DNA of 49,589 bases from Thermoplasmatales archaeon (lineage in GTDB: Archaea; Thermoplasmatota; Thermoplasmata; Thermoplasmatales; Thermoplasmataceae), in NCBI GenBank assembly GCA_026127925.1, contig JAJSLM010000008.1, positions 1 through 49,589 of the forward strand, written 5' to 3'. A program made the translations under genes and the position numbers. Shown piece after piece: positions 4,627-41,930 of this stretch (the stretch's first letter is position 1; each line of letters opens with the position of its first letter). The notes under the pieces were generated by a model. It ran no database searches. It saw only the letters and a list, made by a program, of their open reading frames with translations, and was not told the DNA's origin.

Positions 4627-4716
4627 ACAAAATAGCCTAATGATACCGCTTCTGTAAATTTTCGAGGTTAAATGCCTCCAAAGCATCTTCTTATATTTTG
4701 TAAATTTGCACTTTGA

Positions 4717-5046
4717 ATGGTGCTTCCTATGATATGGCGCGGGAATGAAATGTTTTTCTCAAATTTCTCATGTCGACTTAATAATTATGGGTATTCTAGG
4801 ACACATGCTCTCTTCAAAGTTCTTATACCAAGTGCTTTTCTAGCTCTATGGTGGGTCGCATCAGGACCATACACAGATTACGCTCTTGCTGGGCAATTCC
4901 TGACAAGTGCACATCTTTACACGATGGCCATCGGAATGTACTACGTTTCAACGGGAACAGTGTCAATGAATTATAACGTCTTCGCAGCGTTTGCAGTATT
5001 GATGGATATTCCAGAAGTACCTTGTATCAGGATTCTCAATTGGTAA
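4717..5046 (+). pseudogene. Remnant of a MalG-type sugar ABC transporter permease
   Basis: About 75 residues (roughly 4786-5017) look like the C-terminal part of a binding-protein-dependent sugar permease. GYSRTHALFKVLIPSA matches the EAA loop that contacts the ATPase, followed by two hydrophobic segments and YTMAIGMYYVSTG as in MalG-like proteins. The usual protein would have about 280 residues; both flanks of the matching part (before GYSR and after AVLMDIP) are unrelated sequence. I judge it a truncated gene. Its position between an alpha-glucosidase and TrmB suggests a lost maltose/trehalose ABC transporter. Confidence 0.65.
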
Positions 5047-5304
5047 GTATAAATTAGTAAAGAAAAATACGATGCACAATCGATTTGGAACTTGCTAATG
5101 AGATTTAAATACTGTGGCTTTCAAATAAATAATACAGCAGAGCTATCACTTGTTGCCCTGTATGAATCAGTACCTTTAAGACACCCCAAGACGCTGGCAC
5201 TCCTATAACGCGGCATAGAAACGCAGACATCGACCATAGTAGTATTAAGGAATTTTAGGTAATTGTTATTTAACATCTCGGGATATGTTCGATGGTGAAC
5301 TTCA

Positions 5305-6342
5305 TCAATCACTTTTTGCAGTGATATTGGTACTCTTCGTATTTAACCTCAATTCAATCATTCTGGCGTCTTCCAATCTCGCGGTTCTTCCACCAACTGA
5401 ATAAATCTTATCGCGAACTTTAATGAAAAATGTGTGCCTCATACCCAATATCCTTTTGGTTCCGGTGATTATTCCGCTAAGTGTTTGCTCTCTTTTATCC
5501 ATTATGCATTTCATAACTGCGTAGATATTTGATCCTTCTTTTTTGATTTGATCAATAGCTTCACATGCTAGCCAGGTTGTTGATAAAAGTACCGGTTTGG
5601 TTAGATCAAAAGCTGTTACCTGTTTTGAAGGTACCCAGATTGTGTGAAAGAAGTAATAATTGGAGATGTGGATCAGCTCACTGTCATCGAAATAAAGCGC
5701 ATACTTACGATCTGAAACATCGTCTCCGACATTGAGTAAAGCAGAATTTCTGTCAACTATCAATACCTCTGAAGCAGGCGAGGGTCTAATTCTGGATACC
5801 GATCCCTTCAGTTCCAGTAATTTTTGAACAGGCGTGTCAGGAAACATGACTAAGGCAACTGTAACCCCTCTGGCAATTGCTTTTTTCAGATGTTTAAACG
5901 CCAGATCAAATGTGTCGGAGTTTGCAGAAAAAATGACTTCTGTTGAAGCAGAATCGATCATCTTTCTTATCCTTGAAGATATTTGTCTATCATCTTCCAC
6001 CAGCCACACAAAAGGTGTAGGAACCCTGTTCCTGCTTTTATGCAATTCTACGAAATCATCTATTCTGGTGCTCAAGTCTCTGAGCTCATCTATTTGCCTT
6101 TTTGAAGAAACAGACAGGGGGACAGCGCGGTATATCTTTTTCTTTCCAGGGCTGACCTCTATGAATCCTTTCCGCTTGAGTGAATCAAATATATCATAGA
6201 TTCTTGGTTGAGGGACCCCGGAAGCTCTAACAACCTGAGTTGAAGTCTGTTCTCCTTCTATCAACAGTGTCGAAAGAACTTTTATTTCGTACGGGGAAAG
6301 ACCAAATTTTGATAGCCCTTCAAAAATATTATCCGCAGACAT
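5305..6342 (-). CDS. TrmB-family sugar-responsive transcription regulator
   Basis: 345 residues. The N-terminal winged helix (about 10-75) contains LSPYEIKVLSTLLIEGEQTSTQVVRASGVPQPRIYDIFDSL-type TrmB sequence, where 'PQPRIYD' is the recognition helix. The middle (about 105-235) is the PLD-like effector domain and the C-terminus is the sugar-binding domain of TrmB/TrmBL proteins. Known members bind maltose, trehalose or glucose and control sugar ABC transporters or glycolysis. Here its natural target may be gone, since only a permease fragment remains beside it. A TATA-like sequence lies about 20-28 nt before the start codon. Confidence 0.85.
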   Translation of the reverse strand: MSADNIFEGLSKFGLSPYEIKVLSTLLIEGEQTSTQVVRASGVPQPRIYDIFDSLKRKGFIEVSPGKKKIYRAVPLSVSSKRQIDELRDLSTRIDDFVELHKSRNRVPTPFVWLVEDDRQISSRIRKMIDSASTEVIFSANSDTFDLAFKHLKKAIARGVTVALVMFPDTPVQKLLELKGSVSRIRPSPASEVLIVDRNSALLNVGDDVSDRKYALYFDDSELIHISNYYFFHTIWVPSKQVTAFDLTKPVLLSTTWLACEAIDQIKKEGSNIYAVMKCIMDKREQTLSGIITGTKRILGMRHTFFIKVRDKIYSVGGRTARLEDARMIELRLNTKSTNITAKSD

Positions 6343-7260: not shown

Positions 7261-7396
7261 TGATGCGACCCATCATTGAGCTGGAACATTATAAGGATAC
7301 TTATATAGAAAAGAGGGAACAGATAGGTTTATATAGGGGGAGAGTCAAGAGAGGGGGAAATTTTAATCTCCTCCTGAATTCTCTGGAGGTGCACGC

Positions 7397-7687
7397 ATGA
7401 CAGGCAAGTTCACAGTTGAACAGAAGTACGAGATCTTGATGGAATCGCTCAACTCTGACGAATCGATAGCAGAAATATGCAGGAAACATGGGGTGGCGCC
7501 TGTGAACTTCAGGAAGTGGAGGGAACGTTTCCTCGAGGGCGGAAAGAAAGCCCTCGCAGATGGACCTTTGGGAAACGAGTACGAGAAGAAGATCGATGAG
7601 CTTACAAGGATCATAGGGGAGCAAACACTTGTTATAAACGAGTTAAAAAAACATCGGCAGGGAGGAGATCAAGATGATATTCCTTAA
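7397..7687 (+). CDS. IS3-family transposase OrfA (DNA-binding)
   Basis: 96 residues. The N-terminus has the IS3 OrfA helix-turn-helix (FTVEQKYEILMESLNSDESI...EICRKHGVAPVNFRKWRERF), followed by a coiled-coil-like leucine region near the end (EKKIDELTRIIGEQTLVINEL). It binds the element's ends and partners OrfB. A strong Shine-Dalgarno GGAGGTG lies before the ATG. It overlaps orfB by 14 nt. OrfB has its own GGAGG at 7661-7665, eight bases before ATG 7674, so it may be translated separately rather than only by frameshifting. Confidence 0.9.
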   Translation: MTGKFTVEQKYEILMESLNSDESIAEICRKHGVAPVNFRKWRERFLEGGKKALADGPLGNEYEKKIDELTRIIGEQTLVINELKKHRQGGDQDDIP

Positions 7688-9296
7688 TCTCTCTGAATTC
7701 ATGACTGTGAGGGAGATTTCAAGGATATCCGGAATCCCCCTGTCCACCTATTATTATCAGCCAAGATCGAGAACAGTTAACAGGATCGATTCGGTGAGAG
7801 CCAAGAGAATCACAGATCTCGCCCTTGAGAGGCCCACATACGGCTACAGGAGAATATGGGCTGTTCTCAGGAATGAGGGGACCCGGGTCAACCGAAAGAC
7901 TGTTGCGAGGATACTGAATAAAAACAATCTTTCCTTGCCGGCGGCAAAGCACAAGAATCGGACAAAGAGGAGGAATCTCTTCACTCCAGATGCTCCCGAT
8001 CAATTGTGGGAGACGGACATAACCTATATCCCAACCCTTTCTGGAATGACCTACCTGATGTGCATCAAAGACTGTTTCAGCAAGGAATGGCAGGGGTATC
8101 TCGGTTCCGCGGCATGCACTGCTTCTGATGCTGTCGGATCTGTGGATGACGCTGTGTCAAGAACGTTTGATGGCAGCTTTGCATACGGCTCGCTCAGAGT
8201 TGACAACGGACCTCAATATTGCGCGCCGAGGAATATATATGACTTGCCAATGGAAGTTTGGTTTCGGAAAGTGTGGGAACATCCGAATAGCTACGGGCAC
8301 GGTTATGTCCGTGAGGACATGGCTGAAGCTGCCCGGATGCAAAACCGCAGGCCGCATCAAAGGAGAACGCATACCAGCACCGTTAGGCCGTATATGGGAG
8401 AGCCGAGCAGGTTGTATGCTGCGAAGGCCATACTGCATTTCTCTAATTCCCACAGAAATGCAGCCTCCCCGGTGTCGTGGCGGTGGCATGCGGTGAAAGC
8501 GATGTGTAATAACTCGGGAGACCTTGCAGTGTCCATGAACATGCCCCGAGAGGTGGTTGAGTAATGGTAGCCCAGTCTATAACCGTAAGGGAAGTGATGG
8601 GCGAAGCACTTCAAGGAGTCGGAGGAGCCCATAGTACCGCTGATCCCGGAGACAGCACAACTCCGGAGAAGGAAAGGGGCTCTGCTTGTCTGCATGAGCA
8701 TTGGGATGTCATGAGGAACTCCATTCCCCAAAGGGGTACGAGGATATGAAAAGGCTTGAAGACATTCAGAATGCCCTGTATCAGGCAGCCAAAACAGATA
8801 GGAAAAGAATATCCTATCTGCATGATGCTGCCAGATGAAGCAGCTCGTAAAGCCGTATGACGGAAAACGTCCCGTACGGTTTGATGTGGAAGGGTCTGGA
8901 GAAATCCAGACCTTTACCCTACCATCGAAGCTGTTCAGGAAGGCAATGAAACTCCTTGGAATAAGACTGGAGTATATACAGAAGCAGACACTGGAAGACA
9001 ACGGCAATATCGAGTCCTTCCACAACTCGATAAAGACTGATTACATCTGGCCAGTAGACATCAGCGATTTCCAGGAGAGGAGGGACATTATCGATCATGC
9101 ATTCGTGGACTATAATGAGAAGAGACCACACTCATCAATAATGTTCCTGAGTCCAAGGGCGTTCAGGAAGAGATGGGATTCTGATCCTGGATTCCGTCTT
9201 GAATACAAAAATTATGTGAAGAAGATGAAAGATAAAGAAATGGAAAGGAGAAAAAATAAAAAGAGGACGGAGGTCGAAAGAAATGGAATCTTATGA
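7674..9296 (+). CDS. IS3-family transposase OrfB, split by a group II intron (join 7674-8220, 8923-9296)
   Basis: As genomic sequence the frame runs from 7674 into the intron and stops at 8564. Joining 7674-8220 (547 nt) to 8923-9296 (374 nt) gives 921 nt, an unbroken 306-residue protein. The joined rve-type integrase domain has Asp115 (WETDITYI), Asp177 (RVDNGPQY) and Glu213 (GNIESFHN). There are exactly 35 residues between the last two, the DD35E spacing of IS3 transposases. The junction codon is T+CA (Ser), giving DNGPQYSSKLFRK. The protein ends in a basic tail. Transposition would depend on removal of the intron RNA; whether that occurs is unknown. Confidence 0.85.
8746..8838 (+). pseudogene. 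30-codon remnant of the intron-encoded reverse transcriptase
   Basis: ATG 8746 opens a 30-residue frame beginning MKRLEDIQNALYQAAKTDRK and ending in ...LHDAAR then TGA. This resembles the first residues of bacterial group II intron reverse transcriptases, which typically read ...AK.D..RRFYSLYDKV.R. Domain V follows 12 nt after the stop, so nearly the whole RT/maturase has been deleted. Any splicing or mobility would need a maturase supplied from elsewhere. Confidence 0.6.
8850..8882 (+). other. Group II intron domain V
   Basis: AAGCCGTATG pairs with CGTACGGTTT across a GACG/CGTC upper stem. The AGC triad at 8851-8853 and the GAAA loop region at 8863-8866 are the ribozyme's catalytic features. 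Confidence 0.88.
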
Positions 9297-9333
9297 GATG
9301 CCAAAATGTTCCAGTTTTTCCTGGGTCAGATCA

Positions 9334-9500
9334 AATTAAACAAAGCGAAGAAACTCATAAGACCGATCCCACGAGAATCGATCATACGCAGGGACGAGAA
9401 CAGGAAGCCCGTCCTTACCGCCTTTGTGAAGATTCTCGAAACGAACGAAGACCTGCCAGAGGAAGCGGTCAAAGTTTGGGTGAAGTCAACAAACATCTAA
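9334..9500 (+). pseudogene. C-terminal tail of the outer IS transposase
   Basis: After the IS3 right end the frame continues LNKAKKLIRPIPRESIIRRD and ends KVWVKSTNI followed by TAA at 9498-9500, next to the right inverted repeat. The position right before the terminal repeat is what is expected for the end of the outer transposase. It cannot be joined directly to the 7260 side without missing several hundred residues of core. Confidence 0.5.
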
Positions 9501-9519
9501 CCGAATTCTGACGCCATAT
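9495..9519 (-). repeat. Right terminal inverted repeat of the outer IS
   Basis: Reverse complement of 6406-6430 with 15 identical terminal bases; overlaps the transposase stop codon region. Confidence 0.8.
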
Positions 9520-9734
9520 TTTTTGGCATAAGGTATAAAAGTTGACTTAATAAACCGGGCAAGGATAGAGATACTATTTCTCGTCTTTGACAAGTTAGCT
9601 GACACCTTTAAATGATCGTAATTTTTATTCAATTACGAGCAAACAAGATAAATAGTAGAGTCGCAGGTACGGTAGAAGATTTATATCGGATTTATGCAAC
9701 TAAATCTTATACTTTCCTTCAATTTAGGCATTAA
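9520..9734. promoter_or_regulatory. Intergenic with hairpin and TATA-like element
   Basis: CGTAAT at 9617-9622 and ATTACG at 9632-9637 can form a 6-bp stem. TCTTATACTTT at about 9703-9713 lies 22-32 nt before ATG 9735 and is a plausible promoter of the next gene. Confidence 0.35.
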
Positions 9735-11324
9735 ATGAATCATAAGAAATTCGGCGCCGCAGAAAAGATTCTAAGGTCTCCCATATTTATTATTGTCGTT
9801 ATTCTGTAGGTACTCTTCTCCATTTCTCTAGCTGATGTACCGCAACCAGCATCATTCTATACCGATTTTATAAGTGATTCTGGAGGAGTTCCGCAGTATC
9901 AATCATCGGTTTTAACAGTCACCCACGGTGCTAACATGACCGTATATAGCCAAACATTTAACTTGTATGGAAACCCGGCCTCAGGCTGGGAAGTCAACTA
10001 CAATCTCTCCCTTATTTCTCAAGGAAAAAACGTACATATTGAATCAGGTTTTGCAGGTATCACGAATAATTCGGGCATGCTGCGTTATAACTTAACTGGA
10101 GTTTTTGACTTTAACATGTACCTCCTCTCCGAAACCGTAAGTAATCATAATGGAAACTGGGCTAACTATAGCATGACAATAGTTTCCTTTTTAAATTCTG
10201 GGCCACATTATTTATATGCTAGTCTTAGCGCTCTCTCTATAACTCCAGTCCTTTCTACAAGTAACTCAAAATATTTTGCTCTTCATATATGGAAGGTCCC
10301 ACAGAATGAGAGCGAAAATTATTCTATAGTTTATGGGATAGCTTCAGGTAACAGCCTTTCTACTGCTTATAACTGGACTCAAACAGGAACGTTTCCTAAC
10401 AATCTTCTCAATTTCAGCATGAAAACTCAAAAGAATATTCAAACGCCCTTCGATTATGTTGGAGAGCCTTACTATTATGGAGTAGGTGTTAAAAGTGCAA
10501 ACGGAAACATCGTCAGAACAGTTGTATTCGGTTCGATGGTGAGTAATCATTCCAAGATGAAAGATTATGAATTTCTCTCATTTATTTCTCTTTCAGTATT
10601 TTTAGCTTTTATAACAAGCAGTGTTAGCATTTATCTCTGTATCACGCCCAAAAATGCTCAGAAAATTGGGAGAATAAGGAAATTTTTGATCAGGGGGGTC
10701 TACAGGCCAAAGTATAGTACATCGTTAGAGAGATTTAAAGGGACTTTGTCCGCAACTTTACTTCTATCTGTTCCATTCGTCCTTATAACATCAATAGTGG
10801 TCTATGTATCTAGTAAAAATTTTTATGGCGAAGCCCCTGACATTGCCATACTTTTATCATATTCGCTCGCCGCTTTCATGACAGCAGCGTTCCCTGCTTC
10901 TTTAACAGTACTTGTCATTCAATCTAGGCTCGGCAAAATTCTAAGACTGTTTACTGATAATGTCGAGGGAAAGTCCGGCATTAAAATCCTGGCATTGATT
11001 TCCTTGTATCTTCTCACATATTTCTATTTCAGCCTTATTATGAATGCTGGATTATTATCTGCTTTTATAAGTTCTGCAAAGACAGTTGAAATACTAACGG
11101 TCATTCTTTACTCAGTGAATCCACTTTCATACCTTTGGCTACTTGGTTCATATCTAAGCAAAAGTCTTTCTTCAAATGGTTTATTCATCTTTGATCCTTC
11201 ATCAATTTCCCTCAGTCCCATATACATAGCATCTATAGGTATAACCTGGATTATCTTGCTCATAGTCCTACCCTGGGCTATTTTCAAGAAGGGAGATGGA
11301 CCTAAAAACACAACCACAACGTAA
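9735..11324 (+). pseudogene. Large multi-pass membrane protein with an in-frame TAG near the N-terminus
   Basis: From ATG 9735 the frame is open to 11324 except for one TAG at 9807-9809 (codon 25). The upstream part reads MNHKKFGAAEKILRSPIFII followed by VVIL, the stop, then VLFSISLADV: one continuous N-terminal membrane anchor broken by the stop. An extracytoplasmic domain of about 220 residues rich in N-x-S/T sequons follows. Then come about six hydrophobic segments (first one KDYEFLSFISLSVFLAFITS), an arrangement like ABC-2-type permeases with a large outer loop. Without readthrough translation could restart at ATG 9936, losing the anchor. Function is not recognised; no ATPase lies beside it. 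I favour a pseudogene by point mutation, but the absence of further decay over more than 500 codons is notable. Confidence 0.6.
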
Positions 11325-12378: not shown

Positions 12379-13773
12379 ATGGATTTTGTTTCTGAACTTA
12401 AAAAAATTCTCCCAGGGAAAGTTTTAACAGAAAAAGAGAGAAAGATACCTTATACGGCCGATGCTTCATATTTCACTGGAAACGAACCTCTCGCAGTCGC
12501 GCTGCCTGATTCTGCAGAGGAAGTATCTAAGTTGCTTAAATTCTGCTATGATAACGGAATAAACGTTGTTCCCCGAGGGGGAGGGACATCGTTGACCGGT
12601 TCTTCTGTTCCTATGAAAGATTCTGTTGTTCTGAGTATGTCGAAATTTGATAAGATCTTGGAGATCAGACCGGAAAACATGTACGTTATTGCGGAACCAG
12701 GTGTCAGGCTGGATGATCTGAATAATAGTCTCAAGAAATTTGGATTTTTCTATCCACCCGATCCTGCAAGTTCTGTTGCGGCCACTGTTGGTGGTTCGAT
12801 TTCTACCAACGCAGGGGGCCTCAGAGCTTCTACTTACGGTACAACAAAAAACTGGGTACTTGGTCTTGAGGTCGTCCTTCCGGATGGCGCATTAATAAAA
12901 ACTGGAGGAAAAATCCTGAAGATCTCGGCAGGTTATGATCTTACTGCATTATTTATTGGCGCGGAGGGGACTCTTGGTATTGTCACAAAGGCAATACTTA
13001 AGATATGGCCGATTCCGGAGGCTGTTGGGCGGATGCTCGCTTATTACGACTCCATAGACAAGGTTGGGAAAGCCATAGCAAAGATGAAAGAAATGGGCAT
13101 AATTCCACTCATTGCTGAATTTCTTGATAGGATAACCATGGATTCCCTTGAGAGAACAAGAAAGATCGAATTCCCGAAGGATGCACAGTTTGCACTTATA
13201 GTTGATGTTTCTTCCACGACCGAAAGTATAAAGAGTCTCATGGAAAGAACTAAAAAAATTCTTGAGGATTTTCAACCGATTTCTATCACCGTTACAACCG
13301 ATCCAGACGAAATGCAAAAGGTTTACGAAGCGCGGAAAGGAGCTTATTCATCCCTTCTAAGTGAAAGGAACAACGAAAATGAGAGGGTCATTATAGGTGA
13401 TATTGTCGTACCAGCTTCCGAGCTGCCAATAACTCTAATCGAAGCCGAAAATCAGATCAAGGAGCATGGTCTGAAGGTTGCACTTTTTGGCCATATAGCG
13501 GATGGGAATATTCATATGAACATATACGCAGATCTGAGCAATAAGAATCAGATGGATTCTGTTGATTCTTTCCAGAGCACAATGGGCATGATTGCAGTGA
13601 AGCATGGAGGCTCTGTTTCTGCTGAACACGGTATAGGATTGGAAAAGAAAGGGTTATTGGAAATGCAGGCCAATGAAGAAAATAACGAGGGGGAGCTTCT
13701 GCTTATGAAAAATATAAAGAAGCTCATTGATCCGAAAAATATTATGAACGGAGGAAAGATTTTTGACATTTGA
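12379..13773 (+). CDS. glcD: FAD-linked 2-hydroxyacid dehydrogenase, GlcD-like (glycolate or D-lactate)
   Basis: 464 residues, VAO/PCMH-type flavoprotein. The FAD-binding domain has VPRGGGTSLTGSSVP (about 61-75) and the VGGSISTNAGGLRASTYGTT loop, and the C-terminal FAD_oxidase_C domain has LFGHIADGNIHMN (substrate/metal site) and GSVSAEHGIGLEKK near the end. The family oxidises D-lactate, glycolate or other 2-hydroxyacids and passes electrons to an Fe-S partner and then to quinone. The next gene supplies that partner and overlaps it by 11 nt. The exact substrate is not determined by the sequence. Confidence 0.85.
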   Translation: MDFVSELKKILPGKVLTEKERKIPYTADASYFTGNEPLAVALPDSAEEVSKLLKFCYDNGINVVPRGGGTSLTGSSVPMKDSVVLSMSKFDKILEIRPENMYVIAEPGVRLDDLNNSLKKFGFFYPPDPASSVAATVGGSISTNAGGLRASTYGTTKNWVLGLEVVLPDGALIKTGGKILKISAGYDLTALFIGAEGTLGIVTKAILKIWPIPEAVGRMLAYYDSIDKVGKAIAKMKEMGIIPLIAEFLDRITMDSLERTRKIEFPKDAQFALIVDVSSTTESIKSLMERTKKILEDFQPISITVTTDPDEMQKVYEARKGAYSSLLSERNNENERVIIGDIVVPASELPITLIEAENQIKEHGLKVALFGHIADGNIHMNIYADLSNKNQMDSVDSFQSTMGMIAVKHGGSVSAEHGIGLEKKGLLEMQANEENNEGELLLMKNIKKLIDPKNIMNGGKIFDI

Positions 13774-14989
13774 TCTTGTGGAACTTTTAAAGGACGAAAC
13801 TGGAAAATGCATAAACTGTGGCTTCTGCGAGACAGTCTGCCCTACACTTGAGCCATCGGGGTATGATTTATGGAAAGGGGCCAGAGGGCGAGTCATGGAA
13901 GCTAAGGAGCTGGTAAAGGCCGTTGAGTCCGGGACGGAGTCTCTGAGATCTGGTGACAGTTTCTATTCATGTCTTGACTGCCACGCCTGCTTTTACATCT
14001 GCCCTGCGGGTGTCAATGCAGGGATTGCAAGTCATCTTTCGAGAGAAATCATAACTACTAGGCACATAAAAAAGAATGAAAATCCGACAGCTGCCATGAT
14101 GACTTCTGTTACAATGAAATACAATAACCCACTGGGTATCAGAAAAAAATGTGCGTCCTGGTCTAATGGCTTGCAATTTGACAGAGATTCCACCGATCTT
14201 CTATTTACAGGAAACATGTACCAGTTAATGTCTTACGAGAAAGGCATGAATTCTCTCAGAGGGATTATAGGCAAAGGTCTCACTCAAAGAATCGCCTCTA
14301 TGGTTACAAAGCACCCCTCCCTGATAAAATTGTCTCCAAAGCCAAAAGATAAAGAACTCGATAAAAAGATGTCGACAAGCCTGAAAAACATTGTCCGCAT
14401 ACTCAATATGTCTGGAATTTGCCTTAATTATCTTGGCGAGGATGAACCATATCCAGGTACGTTTCTTTACGATCTCGGTTACCTCGAAGAATTCAAAGAG
14501 TATGCAAAGAGAATCTCGTATATCTTTCACAGGGCCAAAGCCAGGCGAATAATAACCGTCGATCCACACAGTTACGATCTATTAAAGAACGTTTATCCTC
14601 TGTATGTGAAAGACTTTGATTTTTCTGTTGTTCACTATCTGGATCTAATAGATGTTCCACTGCTCTTCAAGGAGAGAAATATAACCCTCCATGAGCCATG
14701 CCACTTCGCGATGAGATCACCAGAATACACTGCGGAAATAAAAATACTCAGGAGCACTGCAAATCTCGTACTTCCAGAAAGAAGTGGAAAGAAATCGAGA
14801 TGCTGTGGCGGTCCAGATGAGCTTCTCTTTCCAGATATATCAGAAAAGGTATCTCAGGAAAGGTACGCTGAACTTGAAAAAACAGGAGCATCGCAGATCA
14901 TAACTGCCTGCCCGATCTGTTTTTCCAATCTGGCTAAGAGCGATAAGGTAACCGATATAAGCGATTTCATCGTTCGGTCTGTGCTTTAG
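13763..14989 (+). CDS. glcF: Fe-S oxidoreductase subunit, GlcF/heterodisulfide-reductase-D-like
   Basis: 408 residues from TTG 13763, overlapping the end of glcD. Two 4Fe-4S motifs stand near the N-terminus: CINCGFCETVCP and CLDCHACFYICP. Two C-terminal CCG-type regions follow, the first near EPCHFAMRS and RCCGGPDEL, the second TACPICFSN. This pattern is shared by GlcF, D-lactate dehydrogenase Fe-S subunits and HdrD. The pairing with glcD implies electron transfer from hydroxyacid to the membrane quinone pool; no membrane segment is visible. It converges on the next gene with a 5-nt gap. Confidence 0.85.
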   Translation: MTFDLVELLKDETGKCINCGFCETVCPTLEPSGYDLWKGARGRVMEAKELVKAVESGTESLRSGDSFYSCLDCHACFYICPAGVNAGIASHLSREIITTRHIKKNENPTAAMMTSVTMKYNNPLGIRKKCASWSNGLQFDRDSTDLLFTGNMYQLMSYEKGMNSLRGIIGKGLTQRIASMVTKHPSLIKLSPKPKDKELDKKMSTSLKNIVRILNMSGICLNYLGEDEPYPGTFLYDLGYLEEFKEYAKRISYIFHRAKARRIITVDPHSYDLLKNVYPLYVKDFDFSVVHYLDLIDVPLLFKERNITLHEPCHFAMRSPEYTAEIKILRSTANLVLPERSGKKSRCCGGPDELLFPDISEKVSQERYAELEKTGASQIITACPICFSNLAKSDKVTDISDFIVRSVL

Positions 14990-14994
14990 TGACT

Positions 14995-16980
14995 CTATCT
15001 ACCTTTGTACTCCGGCTTTCTCTTCTGGACAAAGGCGGATATCCCTTCCTTTAGGTCATCTGTTCCAAATAGGAGTCCCATAGCCATCGATTCCATCTCA
15101 AGGCCATTGTCCGCTGGCACTTCCGATCCCTTATTCATGAGTCTTTTCGCAAGAGCGGCTGATATCGGTGCAACAGATGACGCGAGGGATGCTGCGAATT
15201 CGGAGGTCTTTTGTTCAATCTCATCCGCAGGGAAGACCTTTGAAACAAGGCCAATATTCTCAGCGTAGTTTCCATCAAACCTCTGCCCGCTGAGTATGAG
15301 ATATGATGCTCTCGATAGTCCCAAAAGCTTTGCTAGTCTCTGGCTGCCCCCCCATCCAGGTACTAGGCCGAGTGTAACTTCCGGGAAACCTATCACCGCA
15401 TCGGGAGTTGATACCCTTATGTCGCACCAGGTTGAAAGTTCAAAACCGCCACCAAGAACGTATCCTTTCATCTCCGCTATAGTGATCTTAGGGATCTCGG
15501 AAAGCATTCTGTAAGTTCTTTCGCCATTCCTGGACATTTCTGCAAAATCCATGGGGCCACTGACAAATTGTGTTAATTGTGCACCTGCAGAAAGGTTTTG
15601 TCCCTTGCCGCGGATCACTATGACATTGATCTCTTTGTCGTTCCACAAAGTTTCCAGATGCCCTTTTAATGCATTCATAACATCTACGCTTATCAGGTTA
15701 TTTCTCGTGCTTGAAATTTCTAGATAAGCTACTCTAGCAGTGGTGTCTCTAATCAGTGAGACGAGCGATTCTTCGGATTTCGCTGTTTCAGGCTGTGCCT
15801 GTACCTTTTTCTCTGCGCTTACTGGTTTACTTGATATTATTTGTTTCAGCTTTCCATCTTCTATCGATTTTGCCGGAGAGAATATATCGGTTCCAAATTT
15901 TTTGCTTAGAGCCATAAGACGGTTCTTTACTTCGGAGTTTGTCAATCCCTCGGCGGCAGATATAGGGCCGAATGGCCTGTTCATACCCAATTTTATACCA
16001 GTCTCTATGTCATTCGGGCTCGTGATTCCCTCCTCGAGCACCTTTACTGCCTCATTAATCTCTATGCAAATTATGTCCATCATATCTATTGCTGAAGTTG
16101 GATTTGCCTGCGGTACCTTTGCGTGCCCATTTTCCCATATATAGAATCCTTTTCCTGATTTTGCGCCAAGTGTTCCGTCCTTCATGAATTTATCATAATA
16201 GCTGCACTTATTGTAATCTGGGCTCAACGTATCCCCATAATACTTTAAAGAATGGTACATCGTGTCGATTCCAACATAATCTATGAGCTCATAAGGACCC
16301 ATGGGAAGACCCATCGATTTTCCCAAAGCGTCTACCTCTTCAGGTTTGGCAAAACCGTTCTGGACGACAAGACATAGCAACAGTGCTTCTGGGGCATTAA
16401 TCCTGTTAACAACAAACCCGGGCGTGTCTTTTAATACACTTATTGGCGTCTTTCCTATCTTTTTGATGAAGTCAAAAGTTTCGTTGAATACTTTATCAGA
16501 GGTTTTATCAGATTTTATGACTTCAACAAGTTTCAGTACAACAGGAGGATTAAAGAAATGTGCACCGAGTATTCTTTCAGGTCCGATTGCGTCCTCTGAT
16601 AGAGTTGATATAAGGATATTTGACGTATTTGATGCAATTATTGCGTCTCTCCGGCATTTTTCGCTAATTTCCTTCATTATCTTAATCTTTAAATCTGGTA
16701 TTTCAGGAACTGCTTCAATGATCATGTCAGAGTCTTTAACGCTTTCACCCAGATCGCTGCTGAATCTTATATTTGACATAATTCGTTCTGATTCGCCCTG
16801 CTTTATTTTTCCGGATTTTTCAAGCCTCTGCAAACTGTTATTAATGGACGTTTCAGCTTTTTTCAGTGCCTCTGGGTATGCATCTTCTATCACAACAGGA
16901 ATACCAGATATCGCTATGACTTCGCCTATGCCATGACCCATCGTTCCAGCACCGATAATGGTGATCTTTGAAATAGCCAT
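14995..16980 (-). CDS. 3-hydroxyacyl-CoA dehydrogenase/enoyl-CoA hydratase fusion
   Basis: 661 residues from ATG 16980, which has a good ribosome site (AAAGGTGAT); an upstream ATG at 17007 is possible but unlikely. The N-terminal half is 3-hydroxyacyl-CoA dehydrogenase: the NAD-binding ITIIGAGTMGHGIGEV, IIASNTSN and AHFFNPP motifs, then two helical C-terminal domains. The last 240 residues are an enoyl-CoA hydratase with GGGFELSTWCDI and FPEVTLGLVPGWGGSQRL, which keep both catalytic glutamates. The order (dehydrogenase first) is the archaeal arrangement, reversed from bacterial FadB. It would carry two steps of beta-oxidation or of a related CoA pathway. An SCP2 protein is encoded directly upstream. 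Confidence 0.92.
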   Translation of the reverse strand: MAISKITIIGAGTMGHGIGEVIAISGIPVVIEDAYPEALKKAETSINNSLQRLEKSGKIKQGESERIMSNIRFSSDLGESVKDSDMIIEAVPEIPDLKIKIMKEISEKCRRDAIIASNTSNILISTLSEDAIGPERILGAHFFNPPVVLKLVEVIKSDKTSDKVFNETFDFIKKIGKTPISVLKDTPGFVVNRINAPEALLLCLVVQNGFAKPEEVDALGKSMGLPMGPYELIDYVGIDTMYHSLKYYGDTLSPDYNKCSYYDKFMKDGTLGAKSGKGFYIWENGHAKVPQANPTSAIDMMDIICIEINEAVKVLEEGITSPNDIETGIKLGMNRPFGPISAAEGLTNSEVKNRLMALSKKFGTDIFSPAKSIEDGKLKQIISSKPVSAEKKVQAQPETAKSEESLVSLIRDTTARVAYLEISSTRNNLISVDVMNALKGHLETLWNDKEINVIVIRGKGQNLSAGAQLTQFVSGPMDFAEMSRNGERTYRMLSEIPKITIAEMKGYVLGGGFELSTWCDIRVSTPDAVIGFPEVTLGLVPGWGGSQRLAKLLGLSRASYLILSGQRFDGNYAENIGLVSKVFPADEIEQKTSEFAASLASSVAPISAALAKRLMNKGSEVPADNGLEMESMAMGLLFGTDDLKEGISAFVQKRKPEYKGR

Positions 16981-16984
16981 AAAA

Positions 16985-17320
16985 TCACCTTTTGATCTTT
17001 GATGCAAGGGTGGTGATTTTTTGGGCAGACATTATATCGCCCGATACCTTCAGTTTTCCGGACATAAAAGCAGAAACTGCGTTGAGCTGTCCTGATAGAA
17101 CATCTGAAATAACTTGATCAGTCGCAGAAACTGTTGCAGATGCCCCTTGTTTCTCTCCCTTTTCAAGAACTATTTCCCCGGATTTGAACTCAACATAATA
17201 TGCGGGCTGATCCGATGGCTTAAACTGGAAAGATTTATTCATACCAGATACTTCCTTCATCGCGCTTTCAGAAGCTTTTACTTTTGTCACTAAATCTTGT
17301 AACACTTCAAAAGATGTCAT
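16985..17320 (-). CDS. SCP2 sterol-carrier-domain protein
   Basis: 111 residues covering a single SCP2 domain: YYVEFKSGEIVLEKGEKQGA and the typical ATVSATDQVISDVLSGQLNAVSAFMSGKLKVSGDI. Such proteins hold acyl chains or acyl-CoAs in a hydrophobic tunnel. It is the first gene of a two-gene unit; the downstream fusion enzyme starts 4 nt after its stop, so a role in presenting fatty acyl substrates is likely. Confidence 0.85.
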   Translation of the reverse strand: MTSFEVLQDLVTKVKASESAMKEVSGMNKSFQFKPSDQPAYYVEFKSGEIVLEKGEKQGASATVSATDQVISDVLSGQLNAVSAFMSGKLKVSGDIMSAQKITTLASKIKR

Positions 17321-17596
17321 AGTTAGATAGCGTTACAAGAATTAAATATCTTTCTGAAAGTTATGTAGGTTGAAAATATTAGGCAATAACGATATAGTCC
17401 TTCTATCTGGATTCAACCTTTGCTAGCACAGGCAGTCCATTCGTTAGGTCGAGGTATCTTCATATAGAGGACCGCTTTCCTAGGGGATTTTAAATTTTTA
17501 GGTAGATAGAGATAAAATTGAATTAAATTGAGCGATGTTGATCGAGTATTGAAATTCTGATATCAAAGGTTAAATAATGTAAAAAAATGCACGTGT

Positions 17597-18253
17597 ATGG
17601 CTTGGATTAAAGAAGAAGATCAAAAGTACCTGAAACAGGAGTTTGAAAAATATCTTAAGGATGACGTTGATTTGAATCTTTTCGTCTCCCGAAACGATGA
17701 TTGCAAGTACTGCAAGGAAACAGAAGAGCTATTGAACGAGCTCGTTGTAATAGATAAGCGTCTGCATCTCAACGTTTATGACTACAATAATTCTCCGAAA
17801 GAAGTAAAAGAATATTCTGTCGAGAAGTATCCGGCAACGATTATTTCAAGACACGGTATTGTTGATGGAAGGATAAAGTATTACGGTATGCCCTCTGGTT
17901 ATGAGTTCGGTTCATTGATAGAAGACATAAAGAATGTCTCGAAATGGGAAGTTGAGGTTTCCTCTAAGGCACTTACCTTGCTGAAGGAAGTCAAGAAACC
18001 AATAACCATCAAGGTTTACGTAACACCAACTTGCCCGTACTGCCCGAAGGCGGTAGGCACAGCGCATAAGTTTTCAATTGTGAACGAAAACATAACCAGT
18101 GAAATGATTGAGGCCCTTGAGTTTGAAGAAGAGGCTGAGGAAGTTGGGGTCTCTAGTGTCCCTCATATAACAATCAACGGAACAGTGCAGTTCGTGGGAG
18201 CCCAACCCGACGATAATTTCGCTGAATATGTATCAGAAGCTAATAGCTCCTGA
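17597..18253 (+). CDS. Protein disulfide oxidoreductase with two thioredoxin folds (PDO)
   Basis: 218 residues, two glutaredoxin/thioredoxin-like units. The first has the redox pair Cys36-Lys-Tyr-Cys39 (DDCKYCKE), the second Cys146-Pro-Tyr-Cys149 (TPTCPYCPKA) followed by a SVPHI cis-proline loop. The double fold is the hallmark of archaeal PDO, which makes and reshuffles disulfides in cytoplasmic proteins of thermophiles. It is transcribed alone. Confidence 0.9.
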   Translation: MAWIKEEDQKYLKQEFEKYLKDDVDLNLFVSRNDDCKYCKETEELLNELVVIDKRLHLNVYDYNNSPKEVKEYSVEKYPATIISRHGIVDGRIKYYGMPSGYEFGSLIEDIKNVSKWEVEVSSKALTLLKEVKKPITIKVYVTPTCPYCPKAVGTAHKFSIVNENITSEMIEALEFEEEAEEVGVSSVPHITINGTVQFVGAQPDDNFAEYVSEANSS

Positions 18254-38215: not shown

Positions 38216-38455
38216 ATGAACAATGACATTGAAACTTCAACAAGGCTCAGTTCGATGAAGAATCACTTCTGGGGTAGATTCATGGGATTTGGATTATTAG
38301 CAATAGGTGTGGCATTCTATCTCTACTGGTCGATTCTGTATAACACGTGGGCCGATGTTGGGGTAACGAGTTTTGTGATCGTTCTTATTGTCTTCGGTAT
38401 TTTGGAGCTTCTTCTCGTACAGGCAAAGATTTCAGAAGAAAACGCAGAGCATTAA
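38216..38455 (+). CDS. Small two-helix membrane protein
   Basis: 79 residues, two hydrophobic segments (about 20-41 FMGFGLLAIGVAFYLYWSIL and about 47-68) with the C-terminus charged. Family not recognised. It converges with the VirB4-like gene, overlapping its stop by 4 nt. Its shape recalls the small membrane partners of archaeal DNA-import machines, but the opposite strand argues against being part of that operon. Confidence 0.6.
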   Translation: MNNDIETSTRLSSMKNHFWGRFMGFGLLAIGVAFYLYWSILYNTWADVGVTSFVIVLIVFGILELLLVQAKISEENAEH

Positions 38456-39852
38456 GAAGACAATATTCTCCTTTCCTCAGAAGTTGATAGGACCCTTATC
38501 TTTTTAACATCTTTTCCACTGGACAATACGCATTCGGAAAAAGAATCCGTTTTTCCTCCGAGAAGGGAATGTACAGGGGCAAAATCAAAATCTTCCAGTT
38601 TCAGGACAGTGTTATGTTCAGTCCTCATGCTCCTTGTCCTGAATACAAAAATTCTGTTGCTGTTATAGGCTATCGAGGCGAGCTCCGGCCTTAGGAAATC
38701 ATCTACATTCTGCGATATATCCACAATCGATGCGTTATAATGCCTTGAGTGTCTGACCATGGAATTCAGTGCATTGAATCCTGCAGGCATCGACGTGATG
38801 ATATGGCACTCGTCGAATATGAGCATCTTCTTCTCGTTTCCAGCAGCCATAAATTGGTTGGCAAGTTTGAGCATTGATGTTATTGCGCGTTCGTTAAAAT
38901 CAACCCCATCTGATGGCCTAACAATAACAACATCCTGATCGCCGGACAAATTTCCCTTTGATTCATCATTCCAAAATCCATTATGGTCTATAGATGGAAG
39001 GATTTTACCCTCTGCGTCTATATACAGAAAGATAGCCTTTCCACCAAATATCTTGGAGGGATATTCATTTAGAGGATCGAATATGAAAAACTTTTCACAT
39101 ACGTGTTTTGTCATCAGTCTGTGAATCAGGAGTTTAACAAGAAACGATTTGCCAGATCCAGTTTCTCCAATAATAAGCATGTTGTGTGAGTTCTCGATGA
39201 AAGGATCTATGTACACCGGTTTCTCATTAATGTCATCGATTCCAACAAGAATGCCTTGAGGAAGAATTTTTGGTGTAAAGTATATCGGGATGATGCTTGA
39301 TAAGGACTTGGAATTCAACAGGTATTTCCCGCCCTTGGAGATGGGTAGAGGGTAATGGCGATTTGAAACGAGTCTGCCTGTATCATTTTTGATTTCCATC
39401 CCCAGATACCCTAATGTTTCGGAAAGGCGATCAAAACGGTCCTTAAGCTCAACAGGATGTTCAGAGGTTATCTTGATATGCATAGATGCGTTGAACAATT
39501 TCGAATTTTCAGCATCGAGTTCTTGAAGGATTCTCTCAGCATCTTCTACCTGTTTCATCAGGGTGGATTTCTCGCCATTCTTCTGATTAATTGAAGTGTG
39601 AAATTCAGTTTTCCGTTCGGCTATGATCTTCTTTATCATCTTTCTCTGAAGATTAGGATTCAGCTTTCGTATACTGAACGCTAACGTTATTGGGAAATCC
39701 AGACTCTCAATCATATTTATGTAATACGGACCAAACTCGTAATCCGCATCATATAGTACGCCGTCTGTCGAGTTTCTGTTTGTCTCAATATATTTTTTCT
39801 TTAACTTGAAATCTATTTTTAATGTCCTTTTCATTGGATCGTACCTAACCAA
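38452..39852 (-). CDS. VirB4/HerA-like ATPase of a type IV secretion-type system
   Basis: 466 residues. The C-terminal RecA-like domain carries Walker A GETGSGKS (229-236), Walker B MLIFDE (343-348) and the QNVDDF segment with a glutamine sensor (about 381), all in the VirB4/TraC/CedB arrangement. The N-terminal 200 residues look like the VirB4 N-domain (FPITLAFSIRKLNPNLQRKM). It is the energy source of the machine encoded by the upstream genes 41894-39845 and is the last gene of that unit; its start overlaps the previous gene by 8 nt. It lacks bacterial VirB4's long insertions. CedB, the Sulfolobales DNA importer ATPase, is the nearest functional analogy. Confidence 0.82.
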   Translation of the reverse strand: MVRYDPMKRTLKIDFKLKKKYIETNRNSTDGVLYDADYEFGPYYINMIESLDFPITLAFSIRKLNPNLQRKMIKKIIAERKTEFHTSINQKNGEKSTLMKQVEDAERILQELDAENSKLFNASMHIKITSEHPVELKDRFDRLSETLGYLGMEIKNDTGRLVSNRHYPLPISKGGKYLLNSKSLSSIIPIYFTPKILPQGILVGIDDINEKPVYIDPFIENSHNMLIIGETGSGKSFLVKLLIHRLMTKHVCEKFFIFDPLNEYPSKIFGGKAIFLYIDAEGKILPSIDHNGFWNDESKGNLSGDQDVVIVRPSDGVDFNERAITSMLKLANQFMAAGNEKKMLIFDECHIITSMPAGFNALNSMVRHSRHYNASIVDISQNVDDFLRPELASIAYNSNRIFVFRTRSMRTEHNTVLKLEDFDFAPVHSLLGGKTDSFSECVLSSGKDVKKIRVLSTSEERRILSS

Positions 39853-40540
39853 GCCACTCGTTCAAATTTGAGAATGCTACATTTTCGTCATCAACAAAAG
39901 ACACGTTAATTCCGCTGCTTGATAGCGTGGAGATCAGTGTGCTCCCCTCCGAAATAAGATGATTTTTCATTTTATCGTCGCTATCGTTCCTACCAGGAAA
40001 AGACAGGAGGATCATGATGGAGTAGCTGTAGTTGTTTTCAACGACGAATCTATCGATCTCGTTATCCCTTTCCAGATCGGTCGGTGGTATTGCTTCGGGT
40101 AAAACTACAACATCAATGTCGGCATCAATAGAATCAAGGATTGAGCGCACTGTTTTAAGCAGTTGATTCTGATCTTTGTGGCTTATTTCAAGGAAATTTG
40201 TTCCTGAACACAACATCATGACGTATATTCTCGACGAAAGGAAAAATAAAGTTCTTTCATTGTGTTTTGAAAAATGGATGTCAATTTCTATTGTGCCCCT
40301 CTTTTTTGTGAAAAGATAGCGAATGTTAATGAATATTAAATCCGAAAGTGGCTCGCCCCCTATCCTCATGAACATAACCAGGAATACCGCAAGTAGTACA
40401 AGCAGCACTGCTAAAGGATTGATCCTTATAATGAGGATACAAACAGAAGCAAATCCGAAAAAGATCAACAATCTTTTCAGCTCTATCCCGAACATCGTAG
40501 GCTTGAAATTGTACAGATTTGATGGTATCCTATATTTCAT
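39845..40540 (-). CDS. PrgI/VirB3-like membrane protein
   Basis: 231 residues. The N-terminal 80 residues read YRIPSNLYNFKPTMFGIELK, then two close transmembrane helices (RLLIFFGFASVCILIIRINP, LAVLLVLLAVFLVMFMRI) and GGEPLSDLIFINIRYLFTKK: the PrgI-family layout seen fused or next to VirB4 in Gram-positive and archaeal conjugation systems. The soluble C-terminal part (about 80-231) is not recognised. It lies between the VirB6-like and VirB4-like genes with 4-nt and 8-nt overlaps. Confidence 0.7.
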   Translation of the reverse strand: MKYRIPSNLYNFKPTMFGIELKRLLIFFGFASVCILIIRINPLAVLLVLLAVFLVMFMRIGGEPLSDLIFINIRYLFTKKRGTIEIDIHFSKHNERTLFFLSSRIYVMMLCSGTNFLEISHKDQNQLLKTVRSILDSIDADIDVVVLPEAIPPTDLERDNEIDRFVVENNYSYSIMILLSFPGRNDSDDKMKNHLISEGSTLISTLSSSGINVSFVDDENVAFSNLNEWLG

Positions 40541-41607
40541 AATTCACTATCTGGCTTCCTGTATTTCATTTCCTCATCCAGGATCTGTTTCCATGGAAGT
40601 GAGTTATCCGGCGATCTCTTCATACTCGCTGTTTTTTGCGGGATTCTATCTTGCAGGGGAGAAAGAGCCATGGTCTTCACGCTCCCTCCGATCGAATCAG
40701 ATAACACTGTCCCCCCCAACCCTGATGTCAGACCGATCCCCCTCGAAACTGCTGTGCCCATTGTTAATCCCCCGACGAAACTGAGAAGTGGAAGGGAGGT
40801 GAGTCCTCTGCCAGAGAAGAAGAGTATTGCCGGTATCACTATCGGTACGAACAGGAAAGCAAGCTGAAGAGGAATGTTGGCAGAAAATATAGATGCCATG
40901 TACAGGGAAAGGAGCACAAGAAAAGGATATACCATCATCTCTGCTATAAATTCCCAAACAATCTTCGCATATTTTTTTCCTATGTTTAAAGAGAATAATA
41001 TAGTTGTGAATGGGAGGATCAGAATCATCAATATCATAAGTGCCTGGCGCATCATTAGCACTCCAAAAAGAGATATGACTGCGATAAAATATGCAGATAA
41101 TACGAGAAATTGAAGGACTTCCTGATTCGTGGAACTTATCGGGTGCGAAACTGAGAATTTTGCAAATCCTCCAGAGAAATTATAGAAACTATACCAGTTT
41201 AACCCTATGTTTTTGAACAGGTAATCAAAACTATATTGTAACTCCATGAGAATGCTCTCCACTATCAAAAGAGAGAGGGCGGCTATGGAAATTGCCGCGA
41301 CCAACTTCATAAGGTTATAGCCGGGATTTAGGGGCTTATAGAAGGCGTTGTAGAAAAGGACGGCCAAGGACGATACGATTATTGCTACAGCGGAAATTGG
41401 CAGGAACGCTGATTTAAAAAGCATATTATAAAGATTCAAGAACGACTGGTTCTTCAGGTCCGGAATAAGAAATGCGTTGCTGGGGGAAAGCCCATATGAA
41501 ATCGTGTTATACCAAAAGTATTGTATCAACGTCTTATAGAGCAGATTTATTGCATCTATTATGTAATACAGTATCCCAGTTGCGATCTTTAGTGAGATCA
41601 TCTTCAT
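40537..41607 (-). CDS. VirB6/CedA-like polytopic membrane protein
   Basis: 356 residues with about seven hydrophobic segments, among them SAFLPISAVAIIVSSLAVLF, YNLMKLVAAISIAALSLLIV, QALMILMILILPFTTILFSL and LAFLFVPIVIPAILFF. A C-terminal glycine-rich tail follows (GLTSGLGGTVLSD). The block around MRQALMILMILILPFTT is the type of conserved region seen in TrbL/VirB6 and CedA. It would form the inner-membrane channel. It starts with a 4-nt overlap after the VirB2-like gene. Confidence 0.7.
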   Translation of the reverse strand: MKMISLKIATGILYYIIDAINLLYKTLIQYFWYNTISYGLSPSNAFLIPDLKNQSFLNLYNMLFKSAFLPISAVAIIVSSLAVLFYNAFYKPLNPGYNLMKLVAAISIAALSLLIVESILMELQYSFDYLFKNIGLNWYSFYNFSGGFAKFSVSHPISSTNQEVLQFLVLSAYFIAVISLFGVLMMRQALMILMILILPFTTILFSLNIGKKYAKIVWEFIAEMMVYPFLVLLSLYMASIFSANIPLQLAFLFVPIVIPAILFFSGRGLTSLPLLSFVGGLTMGTAVSRGIGLTSGLGGTVLSDSIGGSVKTMALSPLQDRIPQKTASMKRSPDNSLPWKQILDEEMKYRKPDSEL

Positions 41608-41894
41608 GAGCCCGTGATTATGAATGTTACAACGGTGTATAGAATTCCACTAACTGCTATGACGTAAATAAACGTCCCTATGAGAGCATTTTTCATTCTT
41701 GCTTTTGCCTCGTACCTCCGATTCTCGTCTGCACCAAAAAAGCTTATTGCAATAGGTATCCAAAGAATTGCTATTATTATGGCTGATACCGAGGCAACTA
41801 TCTCATATATCCTTCCGGTTATGCCTGAAATTTGCGATGGAAGGGACGAAGTAAATGGTCCGAACAATATTGCACTTATTGTAGTAAGTTCCAT
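41604..41894 (-). CDS. VirB2/TrbC-like small two-helix pilin candidate
   Basis: 96 residues. Two hydrophobic helices (about 30-53 IVASVSAIIIAILWIPIAIS and about 71-93 IGTFIYVIAVSGILYTVVTF) are separated by a basic loop GADENRRYEAKARMKN. This is the hairpin shape of VirB2/TrbC pilins and of CedA1/TedC in archaeal DNA-import systems. No signal peptide cleavage site is obvious. First gene of the four-gene operon; a TATA-like element lies 20-33 nt upstream. Confidence 0.65.
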   Translation of the reverse strand: MELTTISAILFGPFTSSLPSQISGITGRIYEIVASVSAIIIAILWIPIAISFFGADENRRYEAKARMKNALIGTFIYVIAVSGILYTVVTFIITGS

Positions 41895-41909: not shown

Positions 41910-41930
41910 ATTAGTTGTATAAATTATATT
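41910..41930 (-). promoter_or_regulatory. TATA-like promoter of the T4SS-like operon
   Basis: Read on the minus strand, AAATATAATTTATACAA lies 20-36 nt before the ATG at 41894, overlapping the stop of the thioesterase gene. The operon probably has its own, leaderless transcript. Confidence 0.45.

Follow-up and report, generated by a model that had tools for sequence, protein, structure and literature searches.

A relaxase-less type IV secretion-like gene cluster on the chromosomes of Thermoplasmata archaea and its possible role in DNA exchange

The window analyzed here, a stretch of 49,589 nucleotides (nt) of contig JAJSLM010000008.1 from a Thermoplasmatales archaeon, carries four minus-strand genes (positions 38452 to 41894), each overlapping the next, that encode a pilin, a VirB6-like protein, a PrgI-like protein, and a VirB4-like ATPase, in this order. 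We propose, with a probability of about 0.5, that the cluster is a minimal, relaxase-less, MPF-FATA-like (monoderm) type IV secretion system (T4SS) that was domesticated in several Thermoplasmata lineages and moves DNA from cell to cell. Four overlapping genes of the T4SS type had been recognized in an earlier interpretation of the DNA without database searches (the sequence-only reading), and their open reading frames (ORFs), overlaps, and Walker A and B motifs are as described there. The same four-gene order occurs in approximately 40 genomes, the genes of the relatives having been called mechanically. This recurrence, together with ratios of nonsynonymous to synonymous substitution (dN/dS) of 0.05 to 0.15 and the matches of the ATPase to VirB4 models, indicates that the cluster is more than a chance arrangement.

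Distribution and inheritance of the cluster

Of 61 relatives, 55 have VirB4, as do 34 of 36 high-quality genomes; these counts take in a few weak matches outside the family, probably to HerA. The cluster is single copy in the high-quality relatives that carry it (34/36). The VirB6-like protein occurs in every family genome of a 200-genome sample of the class and also in f14 and f15, two further families of the class that do not belong to the order, both of which keep the order pilin, VirB6, PrgI, VirB4. The survey of synteny that the sequence-only reading had called for found the cluster in nearly all family members. Most family loci lie at one chromosomal place, flanked on one side by genes for a thioesterase and ribose-5-phosphate isomerase and on the other by those for dihydroneopterin aldolase, an NTPase, and Trm1.

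A tree of the pilin, VirB6, and VirB4 shares 14 of 25 splits with the EF-2 tree (random mean, 0.3; random maximum, 2). In the VirB4 tree, all Thermoplasmata sequences join with a support of 91, and one contig of a WOR-3 metagenome-assembled genome is nested beside DHVE2. Relative to the sister genome, the dN/dS values are 0.064 for the pilin, 0.046 for VirB6, 0.145 for PrgI, and 0.102 for VirB4, which reveals purifying selection. The GC content of the cluster is the same as that of its surroundings, and the pilin was not found on plasmids. The cluster is a core chromosomal system that is inherited vertically, and the patchy or horizontal spread of an integrative and conjugative element (ICE) was not observed. 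The earlier view of a domesticated chromosomal system is borne out by this vertical inheritance, the fixed position, and the relaxase-less core.

Identity of the encoded proteins

The VirB2-like pilin (41604 to 41894, minus strand) has 96 amino acids (aa), with hydrophobic helices at residues 32 to 50 and 75 to 93 and a basic loop between them. It matches the PF18895 T4SS_pilin model with an E value of 2.3e-4 and 21.6 bits, under the curated cutoff of 26.6, and the pilin-like model NF045849 with an E value of 1.1e-4. T4SS_pilin is matched by 29 of 31 family pilins, namely, the window protein and 28 of 30 relatives (best E value, 9.9e-8), and the assignment as a VirB2-like pilin is based on these family-wide matches. 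A hidden Markov model (HMM) search of the PDB with the pilin profile gave no relevant match, and a search across the phylum gave only marginal matches outside the class. No cleavable signal is evident in the window pilin, whereas orthologues in other families have one. Most relatives possess a bare pilin of 83 to 122 aa. One relative, G040 (L043, positions 12826 to 17685), has five tandem proteins in which the pilin hairpin is either the C-terminal part or the whole protein, and four of these are 320 to 405 aa with long secreted N-terminal parts. Hairpin versions of 384 to 616 aa, or decorated pilins, are found in DHVE2 relatives (L038 and L050).

The VirB6-like polytopic membrane protein (40537 to 41607, minus strand) has 356 aa and a disordered C-terminal tail. 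Searches with all 35 members of its family against Pfam and NCBIfam returned nothing useful, and its profile found no relevant match in an HMM search of the PDB. The family profile does match the VirB6 of a Saccharibacteria T4SS with identical gene order (E value, 9e-12), and that protein in turn matches PF04610 TrbL/VirB6 (E value, 3.8e-4). The AlphaFold (AF2) model has a predicted local distance difference test (pLDDT) score of 78, with most of its membrane region scoring above 85, and six to seven membrane helices. When this model was compared by Foldseek with 350,542 PDB chains, the top match was VirB6 in the R388 VirB5/VirB6 stalk complex (7o3v), with an E value of 0.39, which is below significance, and six chains among the 50 matches listed come from R388 T4SS stalk structures. 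The evidence for the VirB6 identity is indirect but consistent. The tail of the window protein ends in a conserved motif, EEMKYRK, and a motif close to EExKYRK forms the C-terminal end in 16 of the 21 family members inspected; a docking role for it would be a guess.

The VirB4-like ATPase (38452 to 39852, minus strand; 466 aa; TTG start) has as its Walker motifs GETGSGKS (A; residue 229) and LIFDE (B; residue 344). It matches NF045975 (E value, 3.7e-22) and AAA_10 (E value, 7.5e-16), NF045971 is matched in 36/36 family members (best E value, 1.7e-62), and the family profile finds VirB4 in the PDB (4ag5; E value, 4.7e-26), which together identify a VirB4-type ATPase. The first N-terminal piece of VirB4 is missing from this ORF and lies in the preceding gene (39845 to 40540, minus strand; 231 aa), whose product consists of a PrgI/VirB3-like hairpin (residues ~1 to 80, with helices at 24 to 42 and 43 to 61) and the first VirB4 N-terminal subdomain (residues ~80 to 231). 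This protein matches TcpE (E value, 0.048) and the VirB4 N terminus of NF045975, and 4 of 22 relatives weakly match PrgI PF12666 (best E value, 0.0023). In Alicyclobacillus, profile positions 5 to 79 match a separate 112-aa protein and positions 68 to 232 match residues 27 to 205 of a full-length VirB4, and this domain-by-domain correspondence, with the weak PrgI matches, identifies the VirB3/PrgI-like protein. In G040, the PrgI-like equivalent aligns to positions 126 to 273 of the VirB4 model and the next ATPase gene aligns to positions 275 to 829. These split alignments in G040 and Alicyclobacillus indicate that in the 231-aa protein, a PrgI/VirB3 hairpin is joined to the first subdomain of VirB4. 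The sequence-only reading was right about a double-transmembrane hairpin of the PrgI type; it took the protein for PrgI alone, which does not hold, as the gene also encodes the VirB4 piece.

The genes overlap by ATGA at the first two junctions and by the 8-nt TTGGTTAG at the junction of the PrgI-like and VirB4-like genes. The PrgI-like protein and the ATPase form a single ORF in 16 of 28 family loci (~540 to 750 aa; one of the 16 is cut by a contig end) and two ORFs in the other 12, the window among them, and the EF-2 tree shows at least six changes between these fused and split states. In Saccharibacteria, the corresponding VirB4 N-terminal piece is a gene of its own, and some conjugation systems of bacteria are known to have VirB3 fused to VirB4. 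A sequencing frameshift was considered as the source of the split and rejected because the sister genome (G001) shares both the split and the TTGGTTAG overlap and the state changes repeatedly on the tree. A paper of 2025 reports that VirB3 homologues are absent from archaea, which the PrgI/VirB3 hairpin described here contradicts.

Partners, related systems, and probable function

Relaxase PF03432 was not found in 37 family genomes, the window's included (other relaxase families were not searched), which makes a remnant of a conjugative element unlikely; linkage to a relaxase in relatives, which the sequence-only reading had named as the mark of such a remnant, was likewise not found. No VirB11 or pilus ATPase (PF00437, GspE/VirB11) scores above the cutoff in the window's genome, and the lone weak PF00437 match there looks like a PIN/KH-domain ATPase rather than a pilus motor. 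No VirD4 gene is linked to the cluster, and the earlier statement that relaxase, VirD4, VirB11, and integrase genes do not flank it is correct locally, but a different contig of the genome encodes a soluble TrwB/VirD4-like ATPase (PF10412, 35.7 bits versus a cutoff of 20.5). The gene is present in most family genomes and was not found in the genera g10 (two single-contig genomes), g18, and g19, which keep the cluster, and the ATPase is therefore not indispensable. At its locus (L075, positions 7286 to 10141; G000 contig C3), the 644-aa ATPase, which has no membrane helices, is followed by a 306-aa protein without a Pfam match. The platform of type IV pili and archaella (PF00482, T2SSF) was not found in the window's genome, which is 98% complete, in its sister, or in g10, g18, and g19, all with the T4SS kept. 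The T4SS without a platform occurs in G000, G001, G010, G018, G019, G026, G034, and G035, representing four genera, and this suggests that the machine works without one, unlike Ced.

The Ced system of Sulfolobales and the Ted system of Thermoproteales are built from the same three core parts, likewise without a relaxase, and DNA exchange by Ced has been demonstrated (PMC9905601, PMC11868833). Ced imports DNA, and recent work indicates that some of its parts are also needed for export. The Thermoplasmata cluster resembles both in being chromosomal and relaxase-less, with a VirB2-like pilin, a VirB6-like channel, and a VirB4-like ATPase. In contrast to both, it carries the PrgI/VirB3 hairpin, and in contrast to Ted, it is not linked to herA, rad50, or parA, none of which is among the cluster's neighbors in the window. 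The CedB equivalog model NF041017 gives 21.4 bits versus a cutoff of 700, and the machine is thus not a member of Ced by this test. The earlier proposal of a Ced/Ted equivalent in the Thermoplasmatales stands as regards the relaxase-less core; the system is not confined to that order, since the same gene order recurs in the class beyond the Thermoplasmatales, in other orders, and also in Saccharibacteria. The cluster also resembles MPF-FATA conjugation systems (ICEs of the CD1110 and Mbov_0397 type), which provide the nearest curated VirB4 models and share the set of PrgI, VirB6, and VirB4; unlike these ICEs, it has no PF03432 relaxase, no linked coupling protein, and no sign of mobility and is not on plasmids.

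Components of this kind are already known. In Cuniculiplasma, Golyshina et al. reported in 2016 (PMC5155288) that genes for VirB4, a multipass protein, and two membrane proteins lie together in a cluster, with a VirD4-family ATPase encoded at a distance, and these T4SS components are very probably the system described here; VirB4 in E-plasma was listed in 2023. The Cuniculiplasma report is a genome annotation without an analysis of splitting and fusion, distribution, inheritance, or function. Our literature search, with most subscription journals outside its scope, found no paper on a class-wide system or its fused PrgI-VirB4 and no other paper on the arCOG numbers of the components. In the papers found, DNA exchange by domesticated archaeal T4SSs is described only for Thermoproteota (Crenarchaea).

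Since Ced and Ted consist of the same parts, and Ced has been tested to exchange DNA without a relaxase, DNA exchange in the manner of Ced/Ted is our first choice and the likeliest function, at roughly even odds; more broadly, the cluster probably provides these archaea with a built-in exchange of DNA (or protein) between cells. The 96-aa helical hairpins in the membrane would be the pilin subunits, VirB6 would be the membrane channel or assembly platform, and the PrgI hairpin would tether the VirB4 ATPase ring to VirB6. By pulling on the pilin, VirB4 may build a short filament or conduit, and it may power the transfer of single-stranded chromosomal DNA between cells, and without a relaxase, the DNA ends could come from the general repair enzymes HerA, NurA, Mre11, and Rad50, whose genes are clustered on a further contig of the window's genome. 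We tentatively suggest, with less confidence than for the function, that this is an ancestral, retained DNA-exchange machine of the Thermoplasmata and, beside Ced and Ted, a third such system in archaea, consisting of four or five proteins, without a relaxase, a required coupling ATPase, or type IV pili, and with VirB3-VirB4 fused and resplit. If true, this would provide a concrete candidate mechanism of gene exchange in acidophilic Thermoplasmata and would mean that such a machine can persist without type IV pili; it is perhaps the smallest T4SS for structural work.

Several points weigh against the proposed DNA transfer. The cluster has no type IV (Ups) pilus partner, unlike Ced, which works with such pili, and no DNA-processing gene is linked to it. 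The structural check proposed in the sequence-only reading was partly favorable, in that the best match of the VirB6 model is a VirB6, at a score that is not significant, and the Foldseek comparison of the pilin hairpin model matched no pilus and is uninformative either way. In addition, Patescibacteria have a similar relaxase-less T4SS that is associated with living on a host and not with DNA exchange (PMC12102498).

The last point leads to a different function for the same machine, in protein transfer or cell contact, as proposed for Patescibacteria. Among bacteria, the clearest relative found that shares the gene order is a T4SS of Saccharibacteria, whose system has no relaxase and includes some genes found to be essential for epibiotic growth. 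At locus L191, our profiles match VirB6 (9e-12), PrgI-VirB4N (6e-18), and VirB4 (2e-75), so that both the gene order and the sequence homology of the patescibacterial T4SS are found in the Thermoplasmata, and the VirB4 N-terminal piece is in both outside the main ATPase ORF. PrgI and this piece are separate genes in Saccharibacteria, whereas in Thermoplasmata they are fused and often joined to VirB4, and the Saccharibacteria VirB6 has an extra N-terminal pilin domain that the Thermoplasmata protein lacks. A Micrarchaeota contig has the same four-gene layout, and Micrarchaeota live together with Thermoplasmatales. However, the cluster has no linked effector-like gene, nearly all free-living family members carry it, and the archaeal relatives with a tested function move DNA, which leaves this alternative unlikely, if the strongest of those considered.

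A pilus used only for adhesion or surface display, with VirB4 and VirB6 serving its assembly, is less likely again. The cluster would be the only recognized filament system in the window's genome, where the pilus or archaellum platform was not found, and the larger hairpin-ending proteins of the G040 and DHVE2 loci carry signal peptides and long extracellular parts, but it would be unusual for adhesion alone to involve a VirB6 channel together with a complete VirB4 motor, and the pilin is bare in most relatives. Conjugative elements typically include VirB4, VirB6, and PrgI, and one ICE has been claimed in Aciduliprofundum boonei (2011; PMC3158045). That the cluster is what remains of such an element after integration and decay was rejected as highly improbable for a system that is near-universal, single copy, fixed in position, congruent with the EF-2 tree, under purifying selection, and without a PF03432 relaxase.

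Adjoining elements and related loci

A TATA-like TTTATA element (41918 to 41923, minus strand) is centered ~26 nt upstream of the pilin ATG, just beyond the upstream thioesterase gene's stop codon, and a similar element occupies the same place in many family loci. This placement suggests that the cluster has its own promoter, and from the sequence, the position would fit a leaderless archaeal transcript. On the other side, a gene on the plus strand (38216 to 38455) converges on VirB4, with a 4-nt overlap at the VirB4 stop, and encodes a 79-aa double-transmembrane protein with no Pfam match above the cutoff. It adjoins VirB4 in 23 of 28 family loci, even where genes further out differ, and was not found in any of the five loci of three related genera (g10, g18, and g19). 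The protein is a candidate fifth part of the machine, with a putative accessory role.

On L170, the contig binned as a WOR-3 bacterium, the cluster is DHVE2-like (VirB6, 3e-43; PrgI, 2e-29; VirB4, 1e-107), which reflects either wrong binning or transfer. On the Micrarchaeota contig (L205, positions 2746 to 5963), a 123-aa double-transmembrane protein, a 345-aa protein with six transmembrane helices, a 236-aa double-transmembrane protein, and a VirB4-like protein are encoded in the identical order. In family f3 (L039, L040, L044, L046, L047, and L049), VirB4 is followed by a second, HerA/TrwB-like ATPase of 677 to 700 aa, and the clusters adjoin genes resembling those of topoisomerase VI subunits.

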